The position numbers and the translations under genes were made by a program. A DNA stretch of 36,330 bases from an uncultured Candidatus Melainabacteria bacterium (GTDB lineage: Bacteria; Cyanobacteriota; Vampirovibrionia; Gastranaerophilales; Gastranaerophilaceae): positions 1 to 36,330 of the forward strand of contig CASLVD010000012.1 in NCBI GenBank assembly GCA_949398305.1, read 5' to 3'. Positions 9,462 through 33,103 of this stretch are shown here, in pieces. Under the pieces are notes generated by a model, which was not told the origin of the DNA, searched no databases, and saw nothing but the letters and a program-made list of their open reading frames with translations. Position 1 is the stretch's first letter; each line of letters opens with the position of its first letter.

Positions 9462-10268
9462 TTATTTCCAAGGGTAACTATTATCGATTTTCCAGCCTGC
9501 GCGTCGGATTCTTTCTGCACAGTATTCGCCGGTGCCGGTTTTTGAACAATTTGTATTTATTTCTTCATCACTAAGATTATATCCTGCAGGTTGAACACCT
9601 TTCCCATCGGATAATCTATCTAATCTGAATACATCTTTTCCAAATTTGTTTGGTTTTGTTCCTCCGTTTATATCAACCCAAACCCAATTGAGTGCTGCAT
9701 TTACACCCGGTGTTGAAGTCCCGCCGAGAACAAAAATTATGTATAAAAATCCGTCTGCTGTATAAAATGTTGTTCGTCCGGTTTGAGATATAAGTGCTGT
9801 AACCATTTTACCGCCATTTAGCGCTGAAAAAGGTGCATTAGAACTGTATCCGCAATCTTTTGGTTGTTGGCAGTATGTTAAAACTTTTATATAAGGTGCC
9901 CAGTATGTTTTAAAATAATTTTCTGCTTGCATTTCAAATGCACTTATTGGTTCTCCAACCTCATCGAAAGACAGTTTGTAAGCTTGATTGATAACCGATA
10001 TTGCACGCTGTAATTTTGTAACAGTTGCACGCTTTTGGTGTTCTGTTATCAATGTTGGTATAGTCATCGCTGCAACAACACCGATAATGCCAAGGGTTAT
10101 TAAAACCTCAGCCAGCGTAAAGCCCTCCTCGGCCGGAGTGGGCAGTATGCTACCAATTTTAACACTTATCATATCAATACACGACCTACGGTGCTTATTT
10201 CCCCGATTATTTCGGTTCCTGAGCAGGAATCTGTTAAAATTATTTTGTTTATTATCCATATAACTCAT
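9462..10268 (-). CDS. Type IV pilin-like / pseudopilin protein with extended leader
   Basis: A secreted prepilin-like protein of 268 residues. The class III signal is GFTLAEVLITLGIIGVV: cleavage is expected between Gly49 and Phe50 (Glu54 is the conserved Glu5), followed by the hydrophobic N-terminal helix. The leader is 49 residues, far longer than the 9 of the other pilin here, and its end is encoded by a dispersed repeat (10126-10163). The globular part has two Cys pairs and a VDINGGTKPNKFGKDVF loop that resembles one in the second pilin (VDTNG...PN..G.D.F). A GAGAGGA ribosome-binding site precedes the first ATG; a start at Met33 is possible but has no good SD. An XRE gene is divergent from it, 86 nt away. 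Assembly machinery is not in the window. Confidence 0.88.
   Translation of the reverse strand: MSYMDNKQNNFNRFLLRNRNNRGNKHRRSCIDMISVKIGSILPTPAEEGFTLAEVLITLGIIGVVAAMTIPTLITEHQKRATVTKLQRAISVINQAYKLSFDEVGEPISAFEMQAENYFKTYWAPYIKVLTYCQQPKDCGYSSNAPFSALNGGKMVTALISQTGRTTFYTADGFLYIIFVLGGTSTPGVNAALNWVWVDINGGTKPNKFGKDVFRLDRLSDGKGVQPAGYNLSDEEINTNCSKTGTGEYCAERIRRAGWKIDNSYPWK
10126..10163 (+). repeat. Dispersed GC-rich repeat, copy 2, read in frame inside the pilin leader
   Basis: Begins TCCTCGGCCGGAGTGGGC and ends TGCTACCAATTTTAAC. It matches copy 4 (28582-28620) along its whole length with one insertion and one deletion. Read on the minus strand it encodes VKIGSILPTPAEE, just before the prepilin processing site. 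Confidence 0.65.
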
Positions 10269-10286
10269 ACTATCCTCTCAATAAAT

Positions 10287-10298
10287 GGTTTATAAACC
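10287..10298. promoter_or_regulatory. Palindromic operator candidate GGTTTATAAACC
   Basis: A perfect 12-bp palindrome in the pilin/XRE divergent gap. It starts exactly 10 nt beyond the pilin -10 box, so it covers the first transcribed bases. The second pilin/XRE gap has a palindrome at the same distance. Confidence 0.6.
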
Positions 10299-10308
10299 TA
10301 TAAATATT

Positions 10309-10337
10309 AATATAAGCTATTGTTTTAAAAAAGTCAA
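10309..10337 (-). promoter_or_regulatory. sigma70-type promoter of the first pilin gene
   Basis: On the minus strand TTGACT (10332-10337) and TATATT (10309-10314) are 17 nt apart. It overlaps the promoter proposed for the divergent XRE gene. Confidence 0.65.
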
Positions 10338-10348
10338 CTGCATAAAAT
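10320..10348 (+). promoter_or_regulatory. Promoter of XRE gene 1, predicted leaderless
   Basis: TTGTTT (10320-10325), 17 nt, TAAAAT (10343-10348), then 6 nt to the ATG at 10355. Transcription would begin at or next to the start codon; no Shine-Dalgarno sequence is present. Confidence 0.5.
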
Positions 10349-10354
10349 AAAAAG

Positions 10355-10582
10355 ATGGATGATAAAGATTTTTTGATTAGATTAGGGTTAAAGCTTAAGA
10401 TTTTACGCAGTATTAAAAAGTTATCTCAAGATGATGTTGCAAATAGCTTAAATATTGATAAAAGCTACTATAGCAAAGTCGAACGCGGGCTTACAAATCC
10501 TACTCTTTTGTATATGAAACATTTATCTGAAATTTTGGAAGTCGATTTGTCTGATTTAATGGATTCTAATATAAATATTTAA
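10355..10582 (+). CDS. XRE-family helix-turn-helix regulator 1
   Basis: A 75-residue protein that is almost only a Cro/C1-type HTH domain (about residues 9-68). LGLKLKILRSIKKLSQDDVA is helix 1 and 2, SLNIDKSYYSKVERGLTNPT is the recognition helix region, and a short tail follows. No sensor domain is present, so it would respond through dimerisation or operator competition. It is divergent from the first pilin gene, and the palindrome at 10287-10298 is its likely operator. The start is ATG 10355; no ribosome-binding site is visible but a -10 hexamer ends 6 nt upstream, predicting a leaderless message. Confidence 0.85.
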   Translation: MDDKDFLIRLGLKLKILRSIKKLSQDDVANSLNIDKSYYSKVERGLTNPTLLYMKHLSEILEVDLSDLMDSNINI

Positions 10583-31504: not shown

Positions 31505-31930
31505 TTATGGAGTTGGTGTTGCCGGAGCTTTTTTGAATAAGTTTTTTACCCATTGAGCACCTTTATTATATAAATTTGTAACTTTTGTTTTTGCTGTTGT
31601 TAAATGTGGTTTGACTTTAGCTAGGCCATCTTTAACCCATTGACCTACTTTAGAATTTTTTAAATATGTATAAGCTTTAGTTGCAACATTTTTTAGTTTT
31701 CCTCTGAATACATATGCTAAAACTGCTGTTGCTGCAAGACCTGCAACTGTGCCTACAACTTTTGTGGTGTTTGATTTTTGTTCTTTTTCAGGGAAAATTA
31801 AGCCCGGTTTCCAGGTAGTTTTTTCGCCTGTAATCGGATCGATATAAACATTATCAGTTTTTGGATTAACTGCTCTTTGTTGAAAATTTGGAGCATAAGC
31901 TGCTGTTGAACCTACAAATAATGATGACAT
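31505..31930 (-). CDS. Small Lys-rich protein with one hydrophobic segment, unknown function
   Basis: A 141-residue protein. The N-terminal 50 residues are neutral with DPITGEKTTWKPG. A hydrophobic segment (about 56-75: VVGTVAGLAATAVLAYVF) follows, then a basic, Lys/Thr/Val-rich helical part (YLKNSKVGQWVKDGLAKVKP) ending in Pro/Thr repeats (APATPTP). It may be a membrane-anchored, DNA- or polyanion-binding or surface protein. AAAGGA precedes the ATG. It lies alone between tyrA (convergent) and the second pilin gene. Confidence 0.65.
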   Translation of the reverse strand: MSSLFVGSTAAYAPNFQQRAVNPKTDNVYIDPITGEKTTWKPGLIFPEKEQKSNTTKVVGTVAGLAATAVLAYVFRGKLKNVATKAYTYLKNSKVGQWVKDGLAKVKPHLTTAKTKVTNLYNKGAQWVKNLFKKAPATPTP

Positions 31931-32050: not shown

Positions 32051-32075
32051 TTTAGTTCTTAATAAATTTTAATAT

Positions 32076-32726
32076 TTATTTTAAATAATCCATATTTCCG
32101 TTGTGCAGAAGATGATATGTGCATCCCCAGCCGGATGAGTTTTTATTACAATCATATACAAGTGACGGATCTCCTAACGGATGTAGACCTTTATTTTTAA
32201 CATATCCAAAAGTAAATAAGTCTTGTCCTATTTGATTTGGCGGGGCTGTACCGTTTGTATCTACAAAAAAATCTATTAATTCATTTTCATTCCATTTACC
32301 AAAACTTATAGAAGTTCCGTTCAATAATACTATTTTATATGTTCCGTTTCCGCCATAATTTCCGGCAGTATTGCCGTTTAAATATTTGTAATGCCCGCTG
32401 TACATACAAGGTGTATTTGTTTCAACTCCGCAATCTTGAGCTACTTTTATGGATGTTAATAAGATTTTTGCAATCTTTAATGAATCTTCTGATTTGTAAT
32501 ATTCTTGTGAAAGATTCCAATCATCCGGAGTGCCATACTCTTCTTCTACACTTCGTAATGCTTGTGAAAGTATTGAGTATGTTTCTTTCAAACGGGTATA
32601 AGTTTGTTTTTCGTAGTATTTACTCATAAGTGTCGGAATTGTCATTGCCGCAACAACACCGATAATGCCCAGAGTGATAAGAACTTCAGCCAATGTAAAT
32701 GCCAATTTCTTGTGTGTATTTGTCAT
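32076..32726 (-). CDS. Type IV pilin-like / pseudopilin protein 2
   Basis: A 216-residue secreted prepilin-like protein with a 9-residue leader. The signal is KKLA then FTLAEVLITLGIIGVV, with cleavage expected after Ala9 (Ala for the usual Gly) and Glu14 as the conserved Glu5. Two Cys pairs and a loop VDTNGTAPPNQIGQDLF are shared with pilin 1 (VDINGG.KPN..G.DVF), so the two are related although the rest of their sequences has diverged. The ribosome-binding site is GGGAGAG. It is divergent from XRE gene 2, 82 nt away, under the promoter and operator at 32759-32815. Confidence 0.9.
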   Translation of the reverse strand: MTNTHKKLAFTLAEVLITLGIIGVVAAMTIPTLMSKYYEKQTYTRLKETYSILSQALRSVEEEYGTPDDWNLSQEYYKSEDSLKIAKILLTSIKVAQDCGVETNTPCMYSGHYKYLNGNTAGNYGGNGTYKIVLLNGTSISFGKWNENELIDFFVDTNGTAPPNQIGQDLFTFGYVKNKGLHPLGDPSLVYDCNKNSSGWGCTYHLLHNGNMDYLK

Positions 32727-32758
32727 TGTTTACTCTCCCTGATGAAGTTAACCGGATT

Positions 32759-32776
32759 TGTTTCCATTTGGAAACA
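32759..32776. promoter_or_regulatory. Operator candidate TGTTTCCATTTGGAAACA
   Basis: A perfect 18-bp inverted repeat (8-bp arms around TT). It starts exactly 10 nt after the pilin -10 box, covering the first transcribed bases, and lies at the -35 side of the XRE promoter. A dimeric regulator bound here could block both genes. Confidence 0.7.
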
Positions 32777-32786
32777 TATAGGATTG

Positions 32787-32815
32787 ATTATAATCTTATA
32801 ATTTCAATATGTCAA
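32787..32815 (-). promoter_or_regulatory. Consensus sigma70 promoter of pilin 2
   Basis: On the minus strand TTGACA (32810-32815), 17 nt, TATAAT (32787-32792): both hexamers match the consensus. The -35 box overlaps the start codon of the XRE gene. Confidence 0.8.
32797..32802 (+). promoter_or_regulatory. -10 element of XRE gene 2, leaderless
   Basis: TATAAT ends exactly 6 nt before the ATG at 32809; no Shine-Dalgarno is present. It lies in the spacer of the pilin promoter, so the two cannot be used at once. Confidence 0.55.
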
Positions 32816-33102
32816 GTAAAAATCCTGCGGGTACTATTAATAAAGAAAACTTATATTTAAAAGAATTTGGTCAAAGTTTAAAGAGTTTGAGAATCGGATA
32901 TGCACAAAAAAGTCTGCGCATATTTGCATACGAAACAGATGTTCCGTGTGCAACATTAAGCAGAATAGAAAATGGACTGCGTATTCCTAATATTATAATT
33001 TTAAAACGTCTGGCAGCAGGTTTTGACTGGACAGTAGAAGAATTAATTGCAAATATAGAAAAAAATATTCCGGAAGAAATCAGGACTTTTGATGTTTTAT
33101 AA
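32809..33102 (+). CDS. XRE-family helix-turn-helix regulator 2
   Basis: A 97-residue regulator: a short N-terminal extension (MSSKNPAGTINKENLYL), then a Cro/C1 HTH (about residues 20-80) with LKSLRIGYAQKSLRIFAYET and CATLSRIENGLRIPN, and a short tail. It has no sensing domain. It lies divergent from pilin 2 with a perfect palindrome in between, and is likely to regulate itself and the pilin. The message appears leaderless. It stops 1 nt from the convergent aroF gene. Confidence 0.87.
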   Translation: MSSKNPAGTINKENLYLKEFGQSLKSLRIGYAQKSLRIFAYETDVPCATLSRIENGLRIPNIIILKRLAAGFDWTVEELIANIEKNIPEEIRTFDVL

Positions 33103-33103
33103 A

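Follow-up and report, generated by a model that had tools for sequence, protein, structure and literature searches.

In the window, by which we mean the whole 36,330-nucleotide stretch of DNA analysed here, a type IV pilin-like gene and an XRE regulator gene diverge from a short gap in which their promoter elements overlap and a palindrome lies beside them. The palindrome is conserved beside homologous XREs in related genomes, such pairs recur throughout the genome, and the palindromes of unrelated XRE families cluster at particular positions. We infer from this arrangement that the XRE binds the palindrome, and we consider it reasonably likely that it acts as a repressor of the pilin and as a regulator, probably an activator, of its own leaderless promoter, which lacks a -35 element, giving a switch of the kind formed by lambda CI in about 50 parallel copies. 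An XRE dimer would bind just downstream of the pilin start site and so block the pilin promoter; the same dimer, at -41.5 of a regulator promoter with a perfect -10 and no -35, would probably recruit RNA polymerase to its own gene. With two physically overlapping promoters, polymerase would use one at a time, and the outcome would be an on/off, possibly bistable, switch, with the regulator on and the pilin off or vice versa. With subfamily-specific operators in about 50 pairs, each pilin could be controlled on its own.

A divergent pair with overlapping promoter elements

The features of the locus are as follows.
31505-31930, strand not given: small-protein gene, flanking the cassette
32065-33103, approximate borders, no strand: cassette of pilin and XRE, about 1.04 kb, with an empty site in the nearest relative (G045)
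32076-32726, minus strand: pilin-like protein of 216 amino acids, leader MTNTHKKLA followed by FTLAEVLITLGIIGVVAAMTIPTL (open reading frame and Pfam N_methyl, PF07963)
32733-32739, minus strand: Shine-Dalgarno-like GGGAGAG of the pilin gene, read from the sequence
32759-32776, no strand: candidate operator TGTTTCCA-TT-TGGAAACA, from palindrome search and conservation in relatives
32787-32792, minus strand: pilin promoter -10, TATAAT, with a 17-nt spacer to TTGACA
32797-32802, plus strand: regulator -10, TATAAT, placed for leaderless transcription and lacking a -35 hexamer
32809-33102, plus strand: XRE/Cro-CI regulator of 97 amino acids, HTH domain only (Pfam HTH_3, PF01381)
32810-32815, minus strand: pilin promoter -35, TTGACA, overlapping the first regulator codons
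33104-34153, strand not given: DAHP synthase gene, flanking the cassette on the other side

The two genes are divergent and 82 bases apart. The pilin-like protein carries the N-terminal cleavage/methylation motif of PF07963 (21.8 bits against a cutoff of 21.2) and a long hydrophobic helix, the combination by which type IV pilin-like proteins are recognised, and FTLAE is invariant across all aligned pilin rows. A single-sequence structure prediction of the pilin head was unreliable (pLDDT 40.5). The regulator belongs to the HTH_3 family by its profile score (23.4 bits against a cutoff of 23), and its single-sequence AlphaFold2 model has five helices with a mean pLDDT of only 44.9. A profile built from 15 module XREs found C.BclI and C.AhdI as its best solved-structure matches and also matched SinR strongly (3qq6 and 1b0n).

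Scored on the assumption that sigma-70 rules hold for this host, the minus-strand pilin promoter, TTGACA-17-TATAAT, matches the consensus at 12 of 12 positions and is the window's one exact 12/12 promoter, where dinucleotide shuffles lead one to expect 0.15, which bears out the full-consensus promoter of the initial annotation. The regulator -10 lies inside the spacer of this promoter and ends 6 nt ahead of the regulator ATG (32809). No Shine-Dalgarno sequence is present upstream of that ATG. Because a perfect TATAAT stands 6 bases before the start codon without a ribosome-binding site, the regulator mRNA is probably leaderless. The nested leaderless promoter proposed initially thus holds for its -10 element and not for a -35, for which the best hexamer matches at 2 of 6 positions and none is recognisable. 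Since the pilin -35 overlaps the regulator codons and the regulator -10 sits in the pilin spacer, the two promoters should be unable to be occupied together.

The palindrome as candidate operator and its conservation

The palindrome consists of 8-bp arms around a non-palindromic TT centre, so that 16 of its 18 bp are symmetric; it had been called a perfect 18-bp palindrome, a description that suits the arms and fails for the 18-mer, as TT is not self-complementary. It starts 10 nt after the pilin -10, in agreement with the initial annotation, and so overlaps the promoter/start region of the putative target gene; for a pilin transcript starting near 32780 it would span about +5 to +22. It lies about 30 nt ahead of the pilin start codon, in the predicted 5' UTR, and its centre is at -41.5 from the regulator ATG. 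The sequence is unique in the window at up to 3 mismatches (0.40 expected) and in the whole genome at up to 2 mismatches, and no second operator palindrome was found in the gap. Against shuffles of its own gap its significance is modest (p ~0.015); the palindrome is convincing as a putative regulatory site through its conservation beside homologous XREs, not through own-gap statistics.

Homologues of the regulator that are 52-63% identical to it (family A) are found in three further genomes of the genus, where they occupy different genomic places and each adjoins a divergent pilin. Among 46 genus genomes, the family-A palindrome TGTTTCCANNTGGAAACA has five matches at up to 1 mismatch, four of them in the gaps between a family-A XRE and its divergent pilin and the remaining one inside an unrelated coding gene. 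Aligning the four gaps shows a single difference among 64 arm positions and centres that read TT, TA, TA and TG. In each of these gaps a -10-like hexamer of the regulator starts at the same distance, exactly 20 nt, from the palindrome. The search of relatives proposed in the initial annotation therefore recovered the palindrome, and homologous gaps lacking it, which were to speak against the idea, did not turn up: the pair is wholly absent at the homologous locus, and the palindrome is retained wherever the pair is present. These relatives support a pairing of regulator and operator. The G005 family-A regulator has a Shine-Dalgarno sequence, and the leaderless state is not universal in the family. 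The pilin divergent from that regulator (L063 101-1519, G005:C17) has an in-frame insertion of more than 150 amino acids, which separates an early FNLAE from the real FTLAEV motif. The family-A palindrome of G044 is the longest, with 13-bp arms, and the XRE beside it (L013 1501-1731, G044:C14) is truncated at about 70 residues, the match to its C-terminal part lying in another frame; it is possibly a broken regulator.

The same kind of site differs between XRE subfamilies, whose palindromes include, besides TGTTTCCA-NN-TGGAAACA, the sequences CCCATATATGGG, CTATCGCG-NN-CGCGATAG, ATGACTAATTAGTCAT, TTCTATATATAGAA, ATTGAGAAATCTCAAT and TGTCGC-N5-GCGACA. Gaps share a string of at least 12 bases in 39% of pairs at 65-80% XRE identity, against 1-4% of pairs below 40%, and many of the shared strings are palindromes, for example CCCATATATGGG and TTCTATATATAGAA. 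Once near-orthologues are collapsed, no label permutation (0/2000) reaches the observed association of gap similarity with XRE identity, a correlation that is supportive and not conclusive, because common descent of whole gaps contributes to it.

A palindrome in a predicted 5' UTR, close to a start codon, could instead form an RNA hairpin that acts on translation or stability of the pilin mRNA and has nothing to do with the XRE. We regard this as very improbable, given that the palindrome sequence tracks the XRE subfamily, that its position is set relative to the regulator start, and that its spacing to the regulator -10 is fixed in all family-A gaps. It is also improbable, if slightly less so, that the XRE activates the pilin, or answers another signal or partner protein while the palindrome belongs to a different DNA-binding protein. 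The 97-residue regulator shows no visible ligand or partner domain, which leaves room for such a reading; a pilin promoter at full consensus, however, needs no activator, the palindrome lies downstream of the pilin -10, and it accompanies homologous XREs at different genomic sites.

Recurrence of the pair and positions of the palindromes

The initial annotation took a dedicated one-to-one regulator for a pilin-like protein to be unusual. In this genome, whose AT richness and 1.9-Mb size, with the pilin signature, suggest that it may belong to the Gastranaerophilales (non-photosynthetic Cyanobacteriota), it is the rule. Across 1.92 Mb in 109 contigs, for which we took the stretches round pilin and XRE genes, there are 119 pilin N-termini and 64 matches to the module-XRE profile. 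XREs within 800 nt of a pilin N-terminus number 47, all of them divergent, with no tandem or convergent arrangement, and four more pilins, counted at first as unpaired, have weaker divergent XREs, so that at least 47 and probably 51 or more of the 119 N-termini have a divergent XRE. The family's other genera have pairs too: among 26 pilin loci sampled from genomes beyond the own genome, G039, G044 and G045, 4 showed one. G039 likewise has 119 pilin N-termini, and several sister genomes, searched with the more stringent threshold of E <= 1e-10, have no more than ten; per-genome numbers across the order range from 1-10 up to well over 47, and genome size changes little alongside. The window itself holds a second module.
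9969-10121, minus strand: N-terminal motif region of a second pilin, from the pilin N-terminus search
10349-10567, plus strand: second divergent XRE, from a module-XRE profile match

The pilin of this second module (9969-10567) has a long in-frame leader insert. Many pilins (L068, L069, L123, L081, L145, L197 and others; in the own genome, for example, G000:C22:10624-10688) carry such an insert, which repeats FTLAE before the true cleavage site and is of either the type FTLAE-GATHV...-FTLAEVLITLGIIG or a second type starting GTCCTCGCCGGACGGGG. This kind of insert is found across the family, and one 65-nt leader element has all 23 of its DNA matches in the genome at or beside pilin N-termini. 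Because it would be removed with the leader, the insert may be a tolerated or functional mobile element.

We collected 97 distinct modules from 16 genomes and compared their gaps. Among the 73 modules whose regulator has no Shine-Dalgarno sequence, TATAAT-like hexamers peak at -12 (24 modules) and -13 (9 modules) of the regulator ATG, 33 together, and no position from -33 to -14 holds more than 7; leaderless regulators would therefore be a common trait of the modules. The -35 matches of these leaderless promoters are near background (3.03 against 2.64 of 6), and full promoters are over-represented on the pilin strand (p = 1.7e-8). For palindromes, XREs were grouped into 49 families at <50% identity. 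Strong palindromes occur in 26 of the 49 families, against a mean of 7.4 and a maximum of 15 in 200 shuffles. With the regulator transcription start taken as the ATG, and with a score cut-off and position windows that were set after inspection of the data, 8 families have a palindrome centred at -43.5 to -40.5 (0.33 in shuffles, maximum 3) and 5 have one at -64.5 to -60.5 (0.41 in shuffles, maximum 3). About half of the 49 families have no strong palindrome; weaker or repeated half-sites may serve there. Within the own genome, 9 of 46 gaps are individually significant for a palindrome against shuffles (Fisher combined p = 2e-7), and palindrome strength at pilins with and without an XRE differs in the expected direction, without significance (Mann-Whitney p = 0.12). 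With few gaps significant one by one and no significant difference from unpaired pilins, we relied on cross-genome conservation and position.

Activators that touch RNA polymerase classically sit at -41.5 or two helical turns further out, and lambda CI at PRM is the model for activation from a -41.5-type position. Because an operator centred at -41.5 of a leaderless promoter without a -35 recurs in unrelated XRE families, self-activation appears to fit better than self-repression, with the qualification that positions near -42 could be partly forced by the geometry of the pilin promoter. The initial proposal, in which an XRE dimer at the palindrome represses both the pilin and its own gene, survives as a compact divergent switch that would control both genes, which fits all the evidence, including the retention of the palindrome by homologous XREs; its self-repressing half is what the geometry disfavours. 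In that simpler scheme, negative autoregulation by an XRE blocking both promoters would give steady low expression and no switch. Negative autoregulation is frequent among HTH-only XRE regulators, and the candidate operator overlaps the place where a regulator -35 would lie. In families B and D a second site sits closer to the regulator start, at about -29, an arrangement that looks more like self-repression. We nevertheless rate the simpler scheme as rather unlikely, since the regulator promoter has no -35 to block and palindrome centres in unrelated families gather at -41.5 and about -62, typical activator positions.

Cassette behaviour, known systems and significance

In the nearest relative, G045, whose DAHP synthase is 99% identical, the site between the small-protein gene and the DAHP synthase gene is empty, and in G045 and about 17 other genus genomes the small-protein gene stands beside the DAHP synthase gene with nothing, or no pilin/XRE pair, between them. 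As the empty G045 site shows, the pilin and XRE, about 1.04 kb, are gained or lost together as one unit, and by parsimony this cassette would have been gained in the genome studied here. No recombinase or target-site duplication was found at the cassette. The small low-complexity protein (31505-31930) adjoins tyrA; its position is kept across the genus, and its length (about 116 to 350 amino acids) and sequence are very variable. A phage origin was considered and rejected: viral contigs hold no relative of the XRE, and the pilin matches two of them only. The palindrome has 18 matches in viral contigs, and a search with the XRE protein across the genome-contig collection gave two distant matches only. 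An extended proposal, which we offer tentatively as a possibility, has about 50 independent bistable switches of the lambda type, one per pilin, in which each XRE represses its pilin and activates itself through a private operator; cells would differ in the pilins they display, and the unit of pilin, XRE and operator would move between genomes as a cassette.

A single module is of a known kind, a divergent HTH repressor with its predicted target in a lambda-like geometry. As at PRM/PR, there is a small HTH protein, divergent overlapping promoters and a candidate operator placed to block one of them and centred near -42 of the protein's own weak promoter (here -41.5 and a 2/6 -35, with the start taken as the ATG). 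The lambda PRM mRNA is also leaderless. Unlike lambda CI, the module XRE has a pilin as its putative target, lacks an oligomerisation domain and exists in about 50 parallel copies per genome, and where lambda CI has three cooperative operators the window locus has a single palindrome. The restriction-modification controller proteins C.AhdI and C.BclI are likewise XRE proteins that consist of an HTH domain alone and whose own promoters carry palindromic operators, whereas the module XREs are linked to pilin genes; no restriction-modification system is among the immediate neighbours (pilin, small protein and DAHP synthase), and 47 XREs of the genome are pilin-linked. SinR, matched strongly by the XRE profile, is a repressor of surface or biofilm genes with the XRE fold, but it is one global regulator with a SinI-binding domain, and the module XREs would each be dedicated to one gene. 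MrpJ and its paralogues are also multiple HTH regulators tied to surface-appendage operons, with 14 mrpJ paralogues in Proteus mirabilis, according to a title cited in PMC5484520, and 13 in Morganella morganii (PMC3521468). Gene context sets these apart: the MrpJ paralogues are part of chaperone-usher fimbrial operons, with several orphans among them, and MrpJ is a repressor of motility, whereas each module XRE diverges from one pilin gene across a gap that holds a palindrome, in several times more copies.

Earlier genome papers mention ordinary type IV pilus genes only (PMC5877343). A literature search outside subscription papers found nothing on pilin/XRE divergent modules or on pilin expansion in Melainabacteria/Gastranaerophilales, and as far as can be told a genome-scale array with subfamily-specific operators is undescribed. 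A divergent pair of repressor and target is a textbook design; dozens of paralogous, pilin-attached pairs in a 1.9-Mb genome are something for which we found no description. They offer a large natural set of XREs and operators from which to learn how recognition helices choose DNA. About 50 pairs with subfamily-specific sites suggest a large set of surface proteins that could be switched one by one and, if this is true, a gut-type bacterium would diversify its surface without DNA inversion or hypermutation.
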